Source: Pseudomonas sp. 21
GTDB lineage: Bacteria; Pseudomonadota; Gammaproteobacteria; Pseudomonadales; Pseudomonadaceae
Assembly: GCF_000955805.1 (NCBI RefSeq)
Contig: NZ_JYOA01000002.1
Span: 1 to 42,246 of the forward strand
DNA: 42,246 bases
Reading direction: 5' to 3'
Every line of letters begins with the position of its first letter. Positions within the stretch are counted from its first letter, which is position 1. Below are positions 7,955 to 35,270 of this stretch, piece after piece. Made by a program: the position numbers and the translations under genes. The notes beneath the pieces are model-generated. The model was not told the origin of the DNA and ran no database searches. It saw nothing but the letters and a program-made list of their open reading frames with translations.

Positions 7955-8887
7955 ATGAGTTCCGCGCTGTCCATCCGTCAACTGACGAAGACCTACGGCA
8001 ACGGTTTCCAGGCCCTCAAGGGCATCGATCTGGACGTCGCCGAGGGCGATTTCTTTGCCTTGCTGGGCCCCAACGGCGCCGGCAAATCCACCACCATCGG
8101 CATCCTCTCCACCCTGGTGAACAAGACCAGCGGCACGGTCAACGTGTTCGGCCATGACCTGGACAAGGACCCGTATGGCTTGAAGCGCTGCCTGGGCGTG
8201 GTGCCCCAGGAGTTCAACTTCAACCAGTTCGAGAAGGTGTTCGACATCGTCGTCACCCAGGCCGGCTACTACGGCATCCCGATGAGCGTGGCCAAGGGCC
8301 GCGCCGAGAAGTACCTGACCCAGCTGGGCCTGTGGGACAAGCGCAATTCTGCCTCCCGCGAACTCTCCGGCGGCATGAAGCGCCGCCTGATGATCGCCCG
8401 TGCGCTGGTGCACGAGCCGCGCCTGCTGATCCTCGACGAACCCACCGCCGGCGTGGACATCGAACTGCGCCGCTCGATGTGGAACTTCCTCACCGAGCTC
8501 AACCAGGAAGGCATCAGCATCATCCTCACCACGCACTACCTGGAGGAGGCCGAGCAGCTGTGCCGCAACATCGCGATCATCGACCACGGCACCATCGTGG
8601 AGAACACCAGCATGCGCAAGCTGCTGAACAAGCTGCACGTGGAGACCTTCTACCTCGACCTGCAAGGCACCCTGAGCGAGGCGCCGAAGCTGGACGGCTA
8701 CCCGGTGCGCCTGGTGGATGACCACACCCTGGAAGTGCAGGTGGACAAGTCGCTGGGCATCAATGGTCTGTTCGTCCAGCTCAACGCCCAGGGCCTGCAG
8801 GTGCTGAGCCTGCGCAACAAGAGCAACCGCCTGGAGGAACTGTTCGTGTCGCTGGTGGAGAAGAATCTGTCGAAGGTGGCGGTATGA
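7955..8887 (+). CDS. ABC transporter ATP-binding protein (YadG/DrrA type)
   Basis: 310 residues from ATG 7955. A frame opening upstream adds 32 residues without homologous character. Walker A GPNGAGKST, Q-loop VVPQEFNFN, signature LSGGMKRRL, Walker B LLILDEPTAGVD and switch His TTHYLEEAEQL are all present, so it should hydrolyse ATP. About 70 extra C-terminal residues form the regulatory tail common in this exporter class. It overlaps the permease gene by 4 nt (ATGA), so the two are co-translated. The transported substrate is unknown; E. coli YadGH is the nearest family I know. Confidence 0.93.
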   Translation: MSSALSIRQLTKTYGNGFQALKGIDLDVAEGDFFALLGPNGAGKSTTIGILSTLVNKTSGTVNVFGHDLDKDPYGLKRCLGVVPQEFNFNQFEKVFDIVVTQAGYYGIPMSVAKGRAEKYLTQLGLWDKRNSASRELSGGMKRRLMIARALVHEPRLLILDEPTAGVDIELRRSMWNFLTELNQEGISIILTTHYLEEAEQLCRNIAIIDHGTIVENTSMRKLLNKLHVETFYLDLQGTLSEAPKLDGYPVRLVDDHTLEVQVDKSLGINGLFVQLNAQGLQVLSLRNKSNRLEELFVSLVEKNLSKVAV

Positions 8888-9663
8888 GCCACGAACTGCG
8901 CGCCAACTGGGTCGCCCTCAACACCATCGTCTACCGCGAAGTCCGCCGCTTCCTGCGCATCTGGCCGCAGACCCTGCTGCCGCCGGCGATCACCATGGTT
9001 CTGTACTTCGTCATCTTCGGCAACCTGATCGGCCGGCAGATCGGCGACATGGGCGGCTTCACCTACATGCAGTACATCGTGCCGGGGCTGATCATGATGT
9101 CGGTGATCACCAACTCCTATGGCAACGTGGTGTCGAGCTTCTTCGGCAGCAAGTTCCAGCGCAACATCGAGGAGCTGCTGGTCTCGCCGGTATCGCCGCA
9201 CACCATCCTCCTCGGCTTCGTCTGCGGTGGCGTGCTGCGCGGGCTGGCGGTGGGCGTGATCGTCACCCTCCTGTCGCTGTTCTTCACCGACCTGCAGATC
9301 CATCACCTGGGCATCACCGTGCTGGTGGTGGTGCTGACCGCCGGGATCTTCTCCATGGGCGGTTTCGTCAACGCGGTGTTCGCGCGCAACTTCGATGACA
9401 TCTCCATTGTCCCGACCTTCGTGCTGACGCCGCTGACCTACCTGGGCGGGGTGTTCTACTCGATCACGCTGCTGCCGCCGTTCTGGCAGACGGTGTCGCT
9501 GGCCAACCCGATCCTGCACATGGTCAACGCCTTCCGCTACGGCATCCTCGGCGTGTCCGACATCCGCATCGGCACCGCGGTGATCTTCATGCTGGTGGCA
9601 ACTGTGCTGCTGTATATCTTCTGCGTGCGCCTGCTGGTGAGCGGGCGCGGGATGCGCCAGTAA
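8884..9663 (+). CDS. ABC-2 type permease (YadH type)
   Basis: 259 residues with six predicted membrane helices (about 30-50, 65-85, 110-135, 145-168, 175-195, 228-248) and the ABC-2 signature region around FVLTPLTYLGGVFYSITLLPPFWQ. It forms the membrane half of the exporter with the upstream ATPase, through the 4-nt overlap. A strong terminator follows, closing a two-gene operon. Substrate not predictable. Confidence 0.93.
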   Translation: MSHELRANWVALNTIVYREVRRFLRIWPQTLLPPAITMVLYFVIFGNLIGRQIGDMGGFTYMQYIVPGLIMMSVITNSYGNVVSSFFGSKFQRNIEELLVSPVSPHTILLGFVCGGVLRGLAVGVIVTLLSLFFTDLQIHHLGITVLVVVLTAGIFSMGGFVNAVFARNFDDISIVPTFVLTPLTYLGGVFYSITLLPPFWQTVSLANPILHMVNAFRYGILGVSDIRIGTAVIFMLVATVLLYIFCVRLLVSGRGMRQ

Positions 9664-9684
9664 GCGGCTCGTTGCGATGATTGA

Positions 9685-9717
9685 GAAAAGGCCCCGGTTG
9701 GGGCCTTTTTCTTTTTC
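9685..9717 (+). terminator. Terminator after the ABC exporter
   Basis: AAAAGGCCCC-GGTT-GGGGCCTTTTT followed by CTTTTT, 22 nt after the permease stop. Confidence 0.9.
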
Positions 9718-9754
9718 GGGGTATTGGGTGCATGGCCGCTGGAGCATTTGATCT

Positions 9755-9833
9755 TGTAGGAGCGAGCTTGCTCGCGAACCGCCCAACGCGAGCGCTGCCG
9801 GTGAACCTGTTCGCGAGCAAGCTCGCTCCTACA
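9755..9833. repeat. REP pair overlapping the end of copS
   Basis: TGTAGGAGCGAGCTTGCTCG and its inverted partner CGAGCAAGCTCGCTCCTACA flank about 35 nt, the usual Pseudomonas inverted REP doublet. The right end supplies the TAG stop of copS (9829-9831, minus strand). Confidence 0.9.
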
Positions 9834-11157
9834 GGGAAAGGTGCTTCGGAAACTCGATGATGAATCGCGTCCAGCCCTGTGCCGATTCGCAGCGAATCTC
9901 CCCGCCATGGGCGCGGACGATGGAGCGGCAGATCGCCAACCCCAACCCGGCATGCTCGCCCTGGCCTTCGCGGCGGGCCGGGTCGGCTCGGTAGAAACGG
10001 TCGAACAGGCGCGGCAGGCGCTCGGGTGGAATCTCCCTGCCCGGGTTTTCCACGCTCAGGCGGCCCGGCTCCAGGCGTACGCGAATCTGCCCGCCGTCCG
10101 GGGTGAAGCGCAGGGCGTTGTCCAGCAGGTTGGCCAGTACCCGGCGCAGCAGGGCGCGGTCGCCCTGTGCCGACAGCTCGCCCTCGCGTTCCAGGCGGAT
10201 GGACTTCTCTTCGGCCAGCGGCCCGTAGAACTCCAGCAACTCGTCCACCTCGCTGGCCAGCGCCAGTGGCTGGCTGCTAGGGGCGAGCAACCCGTGGTCG
10301 GCCTTGGCCAGGAACAGCATGTCATTGACCATCGCGGTGAGCCGCTCCAGCTCCTCCAGGTTGCCGTGCAGCGCCTCGCGATAGTCCTCCAGGCCGCGCG
10401 AGCGCGACAGCACCACCTGGGTCTGGGTCAGTAGCCCGGTCAACGGTGTGCGCAACTCATGGGCGATGTCGGCGGAGAACGCCGACAGGCGCTGGAAGGC
10501 CTCTTCCAGGCGCGCCAGCATGGCGTTCAGTTCGCCGGCCAGACCGCGCAGTTCCTGCGGCATCTGCCCGGCGTCCAGGCGGGTGGTCAGCGAGTGCGCG
10601 CTGACCTGCGCCGCCACCTCGCTCATGCGTCGCAACGGGCGCAGGCTGGCGCGGGCGGCCCAGGCGCCGAGCAGGGCGGTGGCCAGGGCGGAGAAGCCCA
10701 TGGTCATCCAGATCAAGCGCTGCATGCGTTGCAGGAAATGCTGGTGGTGGGTGATGTCGAGGATCAGGGTGAGCTGCGGTCCTTTGGTCTGGCTGGCATC
10801 CAGCGGCGCCTGCAGTTCGCGATAGGCAGGGGCTTCGTCGCTGGCCATGTTCATCGCCGGCAGTTGCCAGAACCAGCGTTGGCCGTCAGGGCCTTGCAGG
10901 CGCAGGCCGAGGTCGGGGTGGCGCTCCAGCTCGCGGCGCAGCTCGGCGGAGTGTGGCGCCAGTTCGTCGGCGTTGCCGACGCCCTTCAATACATCGCGGA
11001 AGATCGCCAGCTTTCCGCTCAGCAACTGCTGGTCCAGCTCGATGAAGTGCGCCTCGCTGGCACGGCTGAAAATGAGGCCGGCCAGCAACGACACGGCGGC
11101 AGTGCAGGCGGCGAACAGCAGGCTCAGGCGCAGGCCGAGGGACAGGCGCGCGCTCAT
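9829..11157 (-). CDS. copS: Copper-sensing histidine kinase CopS
   Basis: 442 residues. Helix one is at about 9-30 and helix two at about 148-170; they enclose a periplasmic sensor of roughly 118 residues that includes His37 and a HHQH cluster at 137-140, suitable for copper ligands. A HAMP region follows. The phospho-acceptor is His233 in [15 protein letters not shown]. The ATPase domain keeps its N, G1, F ([10 protein letters not shown]) and G2 ([11 protein letters not shown]) boxes. ATG 11157 overlaps the copR stop (ATGA). The stop codon lies inside a REP element. It should phosphorylate CopR in response to periplasmic copper; the sensing assignment rests on the adjoining copper operon. 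Confidence 0.93.
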
Positions 11158-31415: not shown

Positions 31416-31769
31416 ATGGGACGCCTGACCACTCACGTACTGGATTCCGCCCACGGCTGCCCTGGCCACGGCATCAAGATCGAGCTGTATCGCGTCGAAG
31501 GTCAGCAACTGGAGCTGATCACCACCCGTGTGACAAATGATGACGGTCGCTGCGACGAGCCTCTGCTGCAAGGCGAGGATTTCCGCGCCGGCGTCTATCA
31601 GTTGCTGTTCAACGCTGGCGACTACTACCGCGCCCGCGGCGTCGAGCTGCCCCAGCCGGCGTTCCTCGACCAGGTGGTGCTGCGCTTCGGCATCGCCTCG
31701 GAAAGCGACCATTACCACGTGCCGCTGCTGATCTCCCCCTACAGCTATTCCACCTATCGCGGCAGCTAG
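31416..31769 (+). CDS. uraH: 5-hydroxyisourate hydrolase (transthyretin-like)
   Basis: 117 residues, the usual size. It opens 5-hydroxyisourate, the PuuD product, to OHCU for UraD. Active-site residues are His7 (LTTHVLD), Arg45 (NDDGRCDEP), His99/His101 (DHYHVPLLISPYSY) and the C-terminal signature YRGS. The frame is open further upstream, but similarity starts at this ATG; AGGA 13 nt upstream is a weak ribosome site. No signal peptide. It is divergent from puuE across a shared regulatory region and followed by a strong terminator. Confidence 0.95.
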   Translation: MGRLTTHVLDSAHGCPGHGIKIELYRVEGQQLELITTRVTNDDGRCDEPLLQGEDFRAGVYQLLFNAGDYYRARGVELPQPAFLDQVVLRFGIASESDHYHVPLLISPYSYSTYRGS

Positions 31770-31815
31770 TCCCCGCCCGTAGGTTTTCCCCCGGACTCTT
31801 CGTGGAGTCTTCCTC

Positions 31816-31843
31816 GGCCCGCCCACACTGCGGGCTTTTTTTT
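31816..31843 (+). terminator. Terminator after uraH
   Basis: GGCCCGC-CCACACT-GCGGGC followed by eight T residues, about 50 nt after the uraH stop. It separates uraH from the following regulator. Confidence 0.9.
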
Positions 31844-31918: not shown

Positions 31919-33718
31919 ATGAGCAGAATCCTGATCGTCGAAGAGCAACCGGTAACGCGTCATGCCTTGCGCTTGATGATGGAGGCTGATCGCCATGAAG
32001 TGGTCGGTGAAGCCGACAACGGACCCGATGCCCTGCACCAGGTGCGCCAGTGCAAGCCCGACCTGATGATCCTCGAGCTCTCCATCCCGCGTCTGGGTGG
32101 GCTGGAGGTGTTGCAGCGACTGGCCGCCCAGGATTCGCCGGTCAAGGTACTGGTGCTGACCGCGCAGGATTCCGAATACTTCGCCGGCCGCTGCTTGACC
32201 GCGGGTGCCGCCGGCTTCGTCAGCAAGCAGGAGGACGCCCAGGCGGTGCGCGAAGCCGTGCGCGCCATCGCCCAGGGGCATAGCTATTTCCCCAGCCATG
32301 CGCTGGGTAGCGTCAGCGCGGCCGAAGAGGCGGGCCATGGTGAGCTGCTCAAGGGCCTTTCGGTGCGCGAACTGAGTGTCCTGCAAATGCTCGCGCGGGG
32401 CTTGAGCAATATCGCCATCGCCGACCAGTTGTCCATCAGTGACAAGACGGTGAGCACCTACAAGGTGCGGTTGATGCAGAAGCTGCACGCCAAGTCGCTG
32501 GTGGAGCTGATCGATATCGGTCGCCGGCATGGGCTGGTGGAAGGAGGTCCGGCAACGGACGTGGAGTCTGCCGGACAGGCGGTCGATGCCGAGGATCGTG
32601 CTGAACTCGATCTGTTGCGCAACATGCTCGATGCCCTGCCGCATCCTCTCAGTCTGCGGGGGCTCGACGGCAAGATCCGCTACTGCAACAAGGCGGCCTA
32701 TCTCATTCCTGGCAAGACGCGCGACGAGATGATCGGCAGCACGCTGGCCGACCTGGGGCTTTTCGCCAGCAGCCGCGAGGGCGAGATGCTGGCCTCCACC
32801 CTGAGCGCCACCATCGCCCGTGGCGAGCCGGCGGATGTAGATGTCGAATTCCAGTCCATCAACAATATCCGTCACGTCGTGTATTTCTGGTCGCGCCCCT
32901 ATTATCGCGGCGAGGGTGAACTGGCCGGAGCGATCACCGGCGCCGTGGATATCACCCAGCGCGACGACCTGATCCGCGTATTGCGTAATACCAGCGCCCG
33001 CGCCGAATCCATCAGTCGCGGCAAGAGCGAGTTTCTCGCCAGCATGGGCAGCGAGTTGCAGGGACCATTGCAGAGCCTGGTGGCGATGATCGACCTGTCG
33101 CTCAACCAGAGTGATCCCGAGCGTCGGCGAGAGCCGCTGGGCGTGGCGCGCTCGCTGGCCAATAACCTGCTGCATGTGCTCGGTGACCTGCAGATGCTCA
33201 GTCGCGCCGAGTCGGGGCGCCTGGAGCTGATGCCCGAAATGGTGGACCTGCGCCAACTTCTCGACCGCAAGCTGGAGAAGCTGCGTGAACCTGCGAAGGC
33301 AAAAGGCGTGGAGGTGGTCGCGGACTTCGAACTGGCCATACAGACCGCCGTCTGGTGCGATCCGCAACCGCTGCGCCTGGTGCTCGACAATCTGCTGGGC
33401 AACGCCCTGAAGTTCACCGACAGCGGTCGCATTCTGCTGCGCTTGCAGGCGCGCGGGCATGGTCAGGGAATGGTCGGGGTGCAGATCGATGTGGCCGATA
33501 CCGGCGCGGGCATTCCCCTGGAGGAGCAGGCCGGGCTCTTCGATCCCTTCAGTCAGCCGCTGCAGAGCCAGAACGTCCGGCGCGGTGGCAGCGGCCTGGG
33601 ATTGGCGCTCGCGCGTGGCCTGGTGGAGGCAATGGGCGGTGAACTGCTGATGAGCAGCCGGCCAGGTGTGGGCAGTGAATTCAGCGTCCACCTGGAACTG
33701 CCCGCAGCCTCGGATTGA
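31919..33718 (+). CDS. Receiver-LuxR HTH-PAS-kinase fusion lacking both phospho-acceptors
   Basis: 599 residues from ATG 31919 (GAGAG just upstream). Residues 1-120 are a BvgA/EvgA/NarL-type receiver. The phospho-Asp position is Glu53 (LMILELSIP); Thr of VLVLTAQDS and Lys of GFVSKQED remain. Residues about 147-212 are a LuxR-type helix-turn-helix (LSVRELSVLQMLARGLSNIAI, SDKTVSTYKVRLMQKL). Residues about 232-345 are PAS. The dimerisation segment reads FLASMGSELQGPLQS, with Ser378 where kinases have the H-box His. Residues 478-597 are an apparently complete HATPase domain (DNLLGNALKFT, DTGAGIP, LFDPFSQ, GGSGLGLALARGL). No membrane segment. It is likely a DNA-binding regulator gated by PAS or nucleotide. 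Target genes are unknown; the purine cluster is the obvious candidate. Confidence 0.9.
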   Translation: MSRILIVEEQPVTRHALRLMMEADRHEVVGEADNGPDALHQVRQCKPDLMILELSIPRLGGLEVLQRLAAQDSPVKVLVLTAQDSEYFAGRCLTAGAAGFVSKQEDAQAVREAVRAIAQGHSYFPSHALGSVSAAEEAGHGELLKGLSVRELSVLQMLARGLSNIAIADQLSISDKTVSTYKVRLMQKLHAKSLVELIDIGRRHGLVEGGPATDVESAGQAVDAEDRAELDLLRNMLDALPHPLSLRGLDGKIRYCNKAAYLIPGKTRDEMIGSTLADLGLFASSREGEMLASTLSATIARGEPADVDVEFQSINNIRHVVYFWSRPYYRGEGELAGAITGAVDITQRDDLIRVLRNTSARAESISRGKSEFLASMGSELQGPLQSLVAMIDLSLNQSDPERRREPLGVARSLANNLLHVLGDLQMLSRAESGRLELMPEMVDLRQLLDRKLEKLREPAKAKGVEVVADFELAIQTAVWCDPQPLRLVLDNLLGNALKFTDSGRILLRLQARGHGQGMVGVQIDVADTGAGIPLEEQAGLFDPFSQPLQSQNVRRGGSGLGLALARGLVEAMGGELLMSSRPGVGSEFSVHLELPAASD

Positions 33719-33796: not shown

Positions 33797-35143
33797 TCAG
33801 AGGAAGATGAACTTCGCCACGAAGATGGCGCACAGCGCGTACAGGCTGATGGTCACGTCCTTGTGGCGGCCGGTGAAGACCTTCATCGCCACGTAGGTCA
33901 CGAAGCCCAGCGCGATGCCGTCGGCGACCGAGAAGGTCAGCGGCATCATGATCACGGTGACGATCGCCGGGATGGTCTCGGTGTGCTCGTTCCAGTCGAT
34001 GTGGGCCATGCCGCCCATCATCAGCATCGCCACATAGATCAGCGCGCCGGCGGTGGCGTAGGCGGGGATCATGCCGGCCAGCGGGGCGAAGAACATGGCC
34101 GCGACGAACAGCACGCCGACCACCACGGCGGTCAGGCCGGTACGGCCGCCGGCGGCGACGCCCGCGGCGCTTTCCACGTAGCTGGTCACCGGCGGCACGC
34201 CGAGCACGGCACCGAAGGCGCTGGAGGTGCTGTCGGCCTTCATCGCTTTCGACAGGTTCTCGATGCGACCGTCTTCGCGTACCAGGTGCGCGCGTTGCGC
34301 GACGCCCATCAGGGTGCCGGCGGTGTCGAACATGTGCACGAAGAGGAAGGCCAGGATCACGCTGATCATGGTCACGTTGAACGCGCCGGAGATATCCATC
34401 GCCAGGAAGGTCGGCGCCAGGCTCGGGGGCATGGAGAACACGCCGCCGAACTGGACGATGCCCAGGGCGATGCCGGCCACGGTGACGGTGAGGATGCTGA
34501 TCAGGATGCCGCCGAACACGCGGCGGTATTCCAGTACGGCGATCATCAGGAAGCAGATGGCGGCGAGCAGCGGGCCGGGGCTGGTCAGGTCACCCAGGTG
34601 GACCAGGGTGGCTGGGCTGGCGACCACGATGCCGGCGGTCTTCAGGCCGATCAGCCCGAGGAACAGGCCGACGCCGGCGCCCATGGCGAAGCGCAGGCTG
34701 ACCGGAATGCTGTTGAGCAGCCATTCGCGGATGCGCGAGAAAGTCAGGATCATGAAGGCGATGCCGGAGATGAACACCGCGCCCAGCGCGATCTCCCAGC
34801 TGTAGTTCATGGTCTTGACCACGGTGTAGGTGAAGAAGGCGTTGAGGCCCATGCCCGGCGCCAGGCCCACCGGCCAGTTGGCATACAGGCCCATGAGGAA
34901 GCAGCCCAGCGCGGCGGCCAGGCAGGTAGCCACGAAGGCGGCGCCGTGGTCGATGCCGGCGTCGGCCATGATGTTGGGGTTGACGAAGATGATGTACGCC
35001 ATGGTGATGAAGGTCGTGAGACCCGCGGCGAGTTCGGTCTTCACGGTGGTGCCATGCTGGCTGAGCTTGAACAGGCGTTCGAGCAGGCCGGTGGCGGGGG
35101 GACTGGATGCAAAGGATTGTTGTTCTTGTTTGGTGCTTTCCAC
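33797..35143 (-). CDS. AzgA-family purine-base permease (adenine/guanine/hypoxanthine)
   Basis: 448 residues from GTG 35143, preceded by AGGAG 7 nt upstream; a TTG five codons earlier is less likely. About 13 membrane helices. Family motifs are TELAAGLTTFITMAYIIFVNP, GLAPGMGLNAFFTY, FLFVHMFDTAGTLMGVA and VPPVTSYVESAAGVAAGGRTG, as in E. coli AdeP/GhxP/PurP-like carriers and Bacillus PbuG/PbuO. It imports purine bases by proton symport. The promoter (TTGAAC, 16 nt, CATAAT) has a regulon operator variant in its spacer, so it should be co-regulated with urate catabolism. No xanthine dehydrogenase genes are in the window. Confidence 0.93.
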   Translation of the reverse strand: MESTKQEQQSFASSPPATGLLERLFKLSQHGTTVKTELAAGLTTFITMAYIIFVNPNIMADAGIDHGAAFVATCLAAALGCFLMGLYANWPVGLAPGMGLNAFFTYTVVKTMNYSWEIALGAVFISGIAFMILTFSRIREWLLNSIPVSLRFAMGAGVGLFLGLIGLKTAGIVVASPATLVHLGDLTSPGPLLAAICFLMIAVLEYRRVFGGILISILTVTVAGIALGIVQFGGVFSMPPSLAPTFLAMDISGAFNVTMISVILAFLFVHMFDTAGTLMGVAQRAHLVREDGRIENLSKAMKADSTSSAFGAVLGVPPVTSYVESAAGVAAGGRTGLTAVVVGVLFVAAMFFAPLAGMIPAYATAGALIYVAMLMMGGMAHIDWNEHTETIPAIVTVIMMPLTFSVADGIALGFVTYVAMKVFTGRHKDVTISLYALCAIFVAKFIFL

Positions 35144-35270
35144 AGCGGTACTCCTCAACGCTCTTGTTGTTGGTCCCTTGCCGTCGGCTGGTTCACCTGC
35201 GTCCCTTGCGCTAACGGAAAGAGTTGTGAGGGTGTGAATGTTGACCTTTGGGTCAGGAAGTCACGCCGCG

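Follow-up and report, generated by a model that had tools for sequence, protein, structure and literature searches.

INTRODUCTION

The closest described systems are BvgA/BvgS of Bordetella and EvgA/EvgS of E. coli, in which a response regulator and a PAS-kinase are separate proteins and the kinase has a periplasmic part, a C-terminal receiver (REC), and an HPt domain. In Pseudomonas aeruginosa, proteins of this kind form the Roc system (RocA1/RocS1), which controls surface structures, again with separate kinases and regulators. Bacteroides hybrid two-component systems unite sensor, kinase, receiver, and helix-turn-helix (HTH) in one membrane-bound, phosphorylatable chain. ComP and AgrC are active membrane-bound kinases that have a hypervariable input and a linked, co-varying signal gene. 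The ingredients of the protein considered here are also known separately, namely, receivers without the phospho-acceptor Asp (PMC4395418), pseudo-histidine kinases (PMC12632262), BvgAS (PMC3726324), and the Roc systems (PMC12051241), all four sources being cited here from part of their text.

Here, we describe a fused regulator of Pseudomonas sp. 21 that is encoded in the window, i.e., the whole 42,246-nt stretch of DNA that was analyzed. It resembles BvgAS and EvgAS in its aligned halves and in the regulator-then-kinase order of 17 unfused loci, but it is one polypeptide without the periplasmic part, C-terminal REC, HPt, phospho-Asp, and phospho-His. Like the Bacteroides hybrids it is a single chain, with the opposite domain order. 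A hypervariable input joined to a fixed output is a trait in common with ComP and AgrC; no signal gene is evident beside the fused regulator. The Roc proteins come from the same genus and are of the same kind but, unlike the fused regulator, act as separate chains, and no fused member is described in the cited part of PMC12051241. Glu at the phospho-Asp site is shared with ChxR (PMC4395418); an Asp-less receiver followed by a LuxR HTH and a PAS-pseudokinase is not mentioned in the cited part of that source. The initial annotation of this locus allowed for an already described family of such architecture. Searches of one open-licence library, which contains few subscription journals, listed no such family and no report of a fused family with both phospho-acceptors lost, nor one of a hypervariable member.

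RESULTS

Domain organization and setting of the fused regulator

The gene occupies positions 31919..33718 of the forward strand and encodes a protein of 599 amino acids (aa). ORF translation and Pfam confirm the order receiver–LuxR HTH–PAS–kinase core that the initial annotation had given for it. The receiver (aa 4 to 115, 31928..32263; Pfam Response_reg, 1.4e-24) is followed by a conserved LuxR/GerE HTH (aa 147 to 199, 32357..32515; Pfam GerE, 1.3e-19), a PAS domain whose solved relative is the BvgS PAS (aa 237 to 349, 32627..32965; Pfam PAS_4, 4.8e-08; 6zj8), a DHp (HisKA) helix pair from which the His is absent (aa 369 to 433, 33023..33217; Pfam HisKA, 2.7e-05), and a HATPase_c domain (aa 481 to 595, 33359..33703; Pfam, 1.3e-25), all on the forward strand. 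The HisKA match reaches 24.6 bits, which is under the curated Pfam cutoff of 26.9. The part that begins with the linker behind the HTH (at about aa 210), ends at the stop codon, and comprises linker, PAS, DHp, and ATPase (32546..33718, forward strand) is referred to below as the variable half. An alternative GTG start upstream at 31802 would give a 638-aa protein; conservation of M1, the start of the 599-aa reading, reaches at least 90% in the alignment of 93 rows presented below.

The receiver fold is followed by a GerE/LuxR HTH, and EvgA chains are among the best solved relatives. The periplasmic sensor part and the C-terminal REC/HPt of the BvgS/EvgS type are absent; the receiver comes first and the ATPase last in the 599 aa. 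With the folds kept and the catalytic residues lost, the protein has the features of a pseudo-histidine kinase and a pseudo-receiver. The AF2 model (93 sequences; mean pLDDT of 86.8, pTM of 0.49) shows the PAS, a single long helix (residues 346 to 395), and the kinase fold, and thus supplies the structure prediction that had been proposed as a check; the domains are well modeled, their arrangement is not. In a Foldseek comparison with PDB, WalK, the LOV-kinase YF1, HK853, and EvgA were among the best matches.

The slot that holds the gene is bordered on the left by uraH (HIUase/transthyretin family, Pfam; 31419..31769, forward strand) and on the right by a Xan_ur_permease family gene (Pfam; 33797..35158, reverse strand). 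In the window, the gaps between the regulator and these two neighbors, both of which are conserved, are 149 and 78 bases, respectively. A GC-rich hairpin-like repeat with a T-run 3′ of uraH (31817..31843, forward strand) probably terminates uraH transcription, and a separate promoter for the regulator is therefore likely. Comparison of base composition with four flanking genes (GC of 0.642 versus 0.632 to 0.662; GC3 of 0.79 versus 0.80 to 0.95) is not telling.

Both phospho-acceptors are lost and the ATP site is kept in most of the family

At the codon level, Glu53 and Ser378 are as initially annotated: codon 53 is GAG (32075..32077, forward strand) in place of the phospho-acceptor Asp, and codon 378 is AGC (33050..33052, forward strand) in place of the phospho-acceptor His, within the H-box sequence MGSELQGP. 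The remaining active-site residues of the receiver are kept (E8/E9, T81, and K103). The ATP-binding boxes had been read as intact, and the residues N495, D527, G529, G559, and G561 are indeed all present.

A protein search in which 7996 candidates were scored gave 1170 matches at E ≤ 0.001, 120 of which were listed. The alignment of 93 same-architecture rows consists of the query and the listed P0002 to P0097 minus the fragments P0046, P0070, P0071, and P0077; the listed P0098 to P0121, whose precomputed domains lack GerE, were left out. P0070 and P0071 (P. nicosulfuronedens, PAS-kinase only) were considered as orphan sensor cassettes; they start just after the HTH or later and look truncated or broken.

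Position 53 is Glu in 78 of the 93 rows, Asp in 13, Gly in 1, and Ala in 1. Position 378 is Ser in 29, Gly in 17, Arg in 11, Asn in 10, Thr in 9, and Ala in 6 rows and, more rarely, Glu (5), His (4), Gln (1), or Leu (1), i.e., 89 of the 93 rows have no His there. Lys103 is invariant (93 of 93). The two losses are thus a family trait, and homologs that retain Asp (13 of 93) or His (4 of 93), which had been named as evidence that this copy is a decayed one, are in the minority. Since both losses are common to most of the family, a decayed single copy is ruled out and a sequencing error at either codon is very unlikely, Glu53 being present in all 38 closest rows (P0001 to P0038).

In these 38 rows, position 378 is Ser (21), Gly (15), or Asn (2), while K103, N495, D527, G529, and G561 are invariant; C256, W324, and P327 are invariant as well. 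The residue four positions after the lost His is Gly in 37 rows and Ala in 1; it is Thr in 11 of 11 unfused relatives. Scoring of five ATP-site residues across all 93 rows gave an intact site (4 or 5 residues kept) in 71, a partial site in 2, and a lost site in 20; the pattern in the latter two groups fits decay of the sequence in those rows. Three further members of the same architecture are encoded in the own genome of the window, with Asp/Asn, Asp/Thr, and Asp/Arg at positions 53/378. Receivers with Asp53 and with Glu53 therefore coexist in one genome, and none of the four members has the His.

Relation to unfused BvgA/BvgS-like pairs

The resemblance to a BvgA/BvgS-type pair, noted from the start, holds for both halves, which align with proteins of the BvgA/EvgA and BvgS/EvgS kind. 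The receiver-LuxR half aligns with EvgA (5f64 and 8zwn) and the PAS with that of BvgS (6zj8). A response regulator of PA7 (L052) aligns at 50% over residues 1 to 209 of the fused regulator. At 17 loci (L043, L045, L047, L050, L053, L058, L059, L061, L062, L064, L066, L067, L069, L070, L076, L081, and L086), unfused relatives of both halves lie on one strand, the response regulator first and the PAS-kinase match following it at 1.2 to 1.8 kb. L044, L063, and L068 have the kinase match on the opposite strand, and 15 loci had a regulator match but no kinase match.

Eleven of the 17 unfused pairs, chosen by similarity and not proven to be the sister group, served as outgroup, and all 11 keep both Asp and His. 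A quick tree was built from 71 fused and 11 outgroup rows, and a branch with an SH-aLRT of 100 sets the fused rows apart. On this tree, position 53 must have changed at least nine times and the state His/no His at least five times. L024 (Rahnella) and L049 (P. typographi), at first apparent family members, proved to be unfused pairs whose H-box is intact, and the tree excludes them. Because the two halves resemble BvgA/EvgA and BvgS/EvgS, and because the outgroup pairs keep Asp and His, the best origin that these alignments suggest is a fusion inside a bvgAS-like operon followed by loss of the phosphorelay. In the simplest history, bvgA would have joined the PAS-encoding part of bvgS, and the C-terminal receiver and HPt would have been lost.

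All 38 closest rows have C256, as do 81 of 93 rows overall and 11 of 11 outgroup rows; it aligns with Cys607, the sole Cys of the BvgS PAS. Replacement of Cys607 in BvgS leads to loss of the response to nicotinate, the response to MgSO4 being kept (PMC3726324, part of the text). C256 was also considered as an EvgS-type redox cysteine; however, BvgS has no Cys at those positions according to the cited part of PMC8174306, and C256 matches Cys607 instead.

The regulator is not a fixed part of the purine cluster

Embedding in a purine catabolic cluster had been annotated for the gene, and Pfam confirms the purine genes in the window. When the slot was inspected in 25 genomes, 17 had a family member beside the permease gene and 6 had uraH and the permease gene with none between them; 2 could not be judged. 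Four of the six regulator-less slots hold another ORF (L160, L161, L163, and L164), presumably that of a LysE-type transporter, and the other two, of 238 and 306 bases, contain no regulator match. In G019, whose slot is among those without the regulator, the neighbors are 97 to 100% identical to those of the window. Since uraH and the permease gene persist without the regulator in 6 of 25 genomes, it is not a fixed part of the cluster. A specific purine role is not supported, an autotransporter gene being the recurrent neighbor elsewhere, and the purine setting looks incidental from this comparison. Tandem regulator pairs lie near the permease gene in P. schmalbachii, P. jinjuensis, and G015 (L018:10001-13608, L019:10001-13577, and G015:C1:3475460-3479060).

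The sensor half is hypervariable between species

From 25 genomes of the genus, we compared the 14, that of the window included, that have a copy at least 55% identical. In all 14, which were chosen for having the gene, uraH and the permease gene flank the regulator, and the regulator frame is open, at 597 to 604 aa, in the 13 orthologs. Identity to the window is 91 to 100% for eight flanking proteins and 55 to 84% for the regulator. Mean pairwise identity among the 38 closest proteins is 0.955 in the receiver, 0.942 in the HTH, 0.394 in the linker that follows, 0.542 in the PAS, 0.708 in the DHp, and 0.596 in the ATPase. A DNA profile of seven genomes drops at about residue 200 and stands at 86 to 98% again from the permease gene on, with one intergenic dip beyond it. 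A hypervariable input and a conserved output are thus found at one locus, between species only.

Synonymous and nonsynonymous divergence was calculated as median NG86 values over 91 pairs, dS near 1 being close to saturation. The eight flanking genes have dS of 0.09 to 0.32 and dN of 0.005 to 0.024. Within the regulator, dS and dN are 0.94 and 0.035 in the receiver (aa 1 to 118), 0.73 and 0.060 in the HTH region, 1.15 and 0.48 in the PAS, 0.89 and 0.25 in the DHp, and 1.07 and 0.38 in the ATPase. The median PAS dN/dS of 0.41 does not demonstrate positive selection; weak constraint together with recombination is a possible cause of the PAS variation. Since dS is raised in the conserved receiver too, the alleles look older than their neighborhood, which points to recombinational replacement.

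In AU tests, the data of all three gene parts (receiver-HTH, PAS, and DHp-ATPase) reject the flank trees, the flank data reject the gene trees, and each gene part rejects the trees of the other parts; in the more lenient SH test, the PAS data do not reject the DHp-ATPase tree (p = 0.12). None of 11 splits is common to the flank trees and the whole-gene tree. L012 and L121 carry sister alleles in all three parts (bootstrap of 100), and the flank tree puts L121 with L009 and L119. The two flanks also conflict with each other, which means that conflict between trees does not by itself single out the regulator gene: the upstream-flank data reject the downstream tree outright (log-likelihood loss of 329 versus 654 to 935 for the gene trees), rejection of the upstream tree by the downstream-flank data is weak (p = 0.033; loss of 34 versus 89 to 138), and the two trees share 1 of 11 splits, the downstream tree being poorly resolved. 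Recombination between species appears to have replaced the gene, both as a whole and in parts.

Control copies of the same family, which lie elsewhere in a partly overlapping set of genomes, have PAS identities of 87 to 97% in 14 of 19 pairs. These comprise P3 copies (5 genomes, 10 pairs; 87 to 97% at the protein level), P2 copies (93 to 95% in three pairs, 68 to 69% in three pairs with a more distant genome), and P4 copies (93% in one pair, 70 to 71% in two); a fifth set, P5, with mixed copies and unalignable flanks, was left out. The degenerate ATPase part of the control copies is more variable than their PAS (67 to 72% among three genomes for P2). The contrast is weakest between the window genome and G006, with PAS dS of 0.62 and dN of 0.16 versus dS of 0.51 and dN of 0.05 for P3. 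A further reading of the variation, which we regard as doubtful, is a polymorphic specificity switch, in which a nucleotide-clamped, phosphorelay-dead PAS module would be swapped by recombination between Pseudomonas species and would connect many ligand or partner specificities to one conserved receiver-HTH output. Such a locus would be similar to pheromone-type loci, except that the protein is of a pseudo-two-component kind and that no linked signal gene is evident.

Many family members outside the purine slot lie near autotransporter genes

Two of the three own-genome paralogs adjoin large autotransporter genes (L129:5832-9002, reverse strand; L130:10854-15464, forward strand). Pfam finds Autotransporter and Pertactin domains in one of the products and Autotransporter and autochaperone domains in the other; pertactin is controlled by BvgA. 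When the beta-domains of these two proteins were used as queries on the fetched flanks, an autotransporter gene was found near 23 of 28 family loci outside the purine slot. Of these 23, 18 were labeled divergent by the script and L017, L020, and L022 are convergent; L030 and L037, where open frames overrun the regulator start, look divergent too. No match was present in the fetched flanks of L018, L019, L028, L046 (a cut contig), and L048, nor in L013 and L014, which are contig ends outside the 28-locus count. Fifteen stretches round other copies (L128 to L142, from genomes that are partly those of the 28 loci) gave nine with a match; L128, L131, and L139 to L142 had none, as did L125 to L127. 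The same queries gave no match at the 43 control loci, most of which hold unfused regulators or kinases and one of which is L060, or at the 13 orthologous purine-slot loci. PF03797 has no match on the contig of the window and 10 matches in the 6.33 Mb of its genome. For much of the family, this linkage suggests that the natural target is likely the neighboring pertactin-like autotransporter gene.

A dyad, GTAGGA-N4-TCCTAC, occurs with at most one mismatch 78 to 84 bases before the regulator start in L023, L025, L027, L031, L055, L129, L135, and L137, i.e., in 8 of 29 autotransporter-linked members versus 0.2% of shuffles; it was found post hoc, and the eight loci include several close relatives or one genome twice. 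It is a possible binding site of the shared HTH. Upstream of the 14 purine-slot regulators, no copy was found with up to three mismatches.

Two other arrangements were seen at these loci. A family-like receiver-only frame of ~115 codons lies near an autotransporter gene in L184 (7451-7798, reverse strand, and 8449-10383, forward strand), the beta-domain of which is 93% identical to that of L130. The P3 paralog (L128) and an EAL-domain gene are divergently oriented, and a gene that encodes PucR purine-regulator domains is nearby (L128:7408-8583, reverse strand; L128:13866-15533, forward strand).

DISCUSSION

With moderate confidence, we propose that these proteins are one-component regulators of a single family: a BvgA/EvgA-type response regulator was fused to the PAS-kinase portion of a BvgS/EvgS-type protein, the phosphorelay was lost, control became conformational, and, at the purine slot, sensor halves were swapped by recombination. 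The PAS would sense a ligand, and the signal would pass via the long helix to a nucleotide-bound DHp-ATPase dimer acting as a conformational clamp on the attached receiver-HTH. Conformation, not phosphate, would then set how the receiver-HTH dimer sits on DNA, with Glu53 holding the receiver in one state, and very different sensor halves would feed one conserved DNA-binding half. Three features suggest the clamp: both phospho-acceptors and the Thr four positions on are gone, ATP residues are retained in the variable half, and the HTH is conserved. In favor of this explanation, N495, D527, G529, and G561 do not vary across the 38 closest rows, in a half of the protein with mean domain identities of 54 to 71%; that the window member has neither a nearby autotransporter gene nor the upstream dyad counts against it.

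A less likely alternative is a constitutive activator with a decaying tail, where Glu53, as a mimic of phosphorylation, would keep the HTH permanently on and weak constraint would account for the variation of the PAS-kinase half. According to the cited part of PMC4395418, Asp-less receivers have Glu more often than any other replacement (26%), and Glu can mimic the phosphate, but the change from Asp to Glu is by itself often insufficient for constitutive activity. Loss of the ATP site from 20 of 93 rows counts in favor of a decaying tail; however, the ATP residues, C256, W324, and P327 do not vary in the 38 closest rows, the frame stays open at 597 to 604 aa in 13 orthologs, and weak constraint on the tail does not explain the raised synonymous divergence of the conserved receiver. 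We consider it improbable that the His-less DHp-ATPase is a scaffold or decoy that tunes unfused Roc/Bvg-type systems by binding their response regulators or phosphotransfer proteins. Integration of pseudo-histidine kinases in networks is discussed in the cited part of PMC12632262, and the own genome has a 1081-codon frame that matches residues 228 to 594 at 34%, yet no unfused partner adjoins the regulator in the window and direct DNA output through the conserved, fused HTH is the simpler reading.

That the protein senses purine catabolites and regulates their catabolism is decidedly improbable. Its position between uraH and the permease gene in all 14 genomes, which were selected for having the gene, speaks for such a role, whereas the six regulator-less genomes, the autotransporter genes beside its relatives, and a hypervariable PAS, which is not expected of a sensor for one metabolite class, speak against it. 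The intact ATP residues would also allow a hidden phosphotransfer, to a His or HPt of another protein or to Ser378 itself. We regard this as very improbable: position 378 is Ser, Gly, or Asn in the closest rows and Asn, Thr, or Arg in the own-genome paralogs, so that none of these paralogs offers a His, and the receiver Asp is gone too; an unrelated protein could still act as the partner.

If a conformationally controlled one-component regulator is the correct reading, then what appears to be a two-component pair has become a one-component protein across a whole family, with the kinase fold and the ATP site kept and the phosphate chemistry gone. The family would thus be a system for asking what the ATPase of a pseudokinase is for. 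A hypervariable sensor half at a fixed slot, with copies at other loci as controls, makes the faster divergence of the sensor testable, and the linkage to autotransporter genes points to candidate targets.
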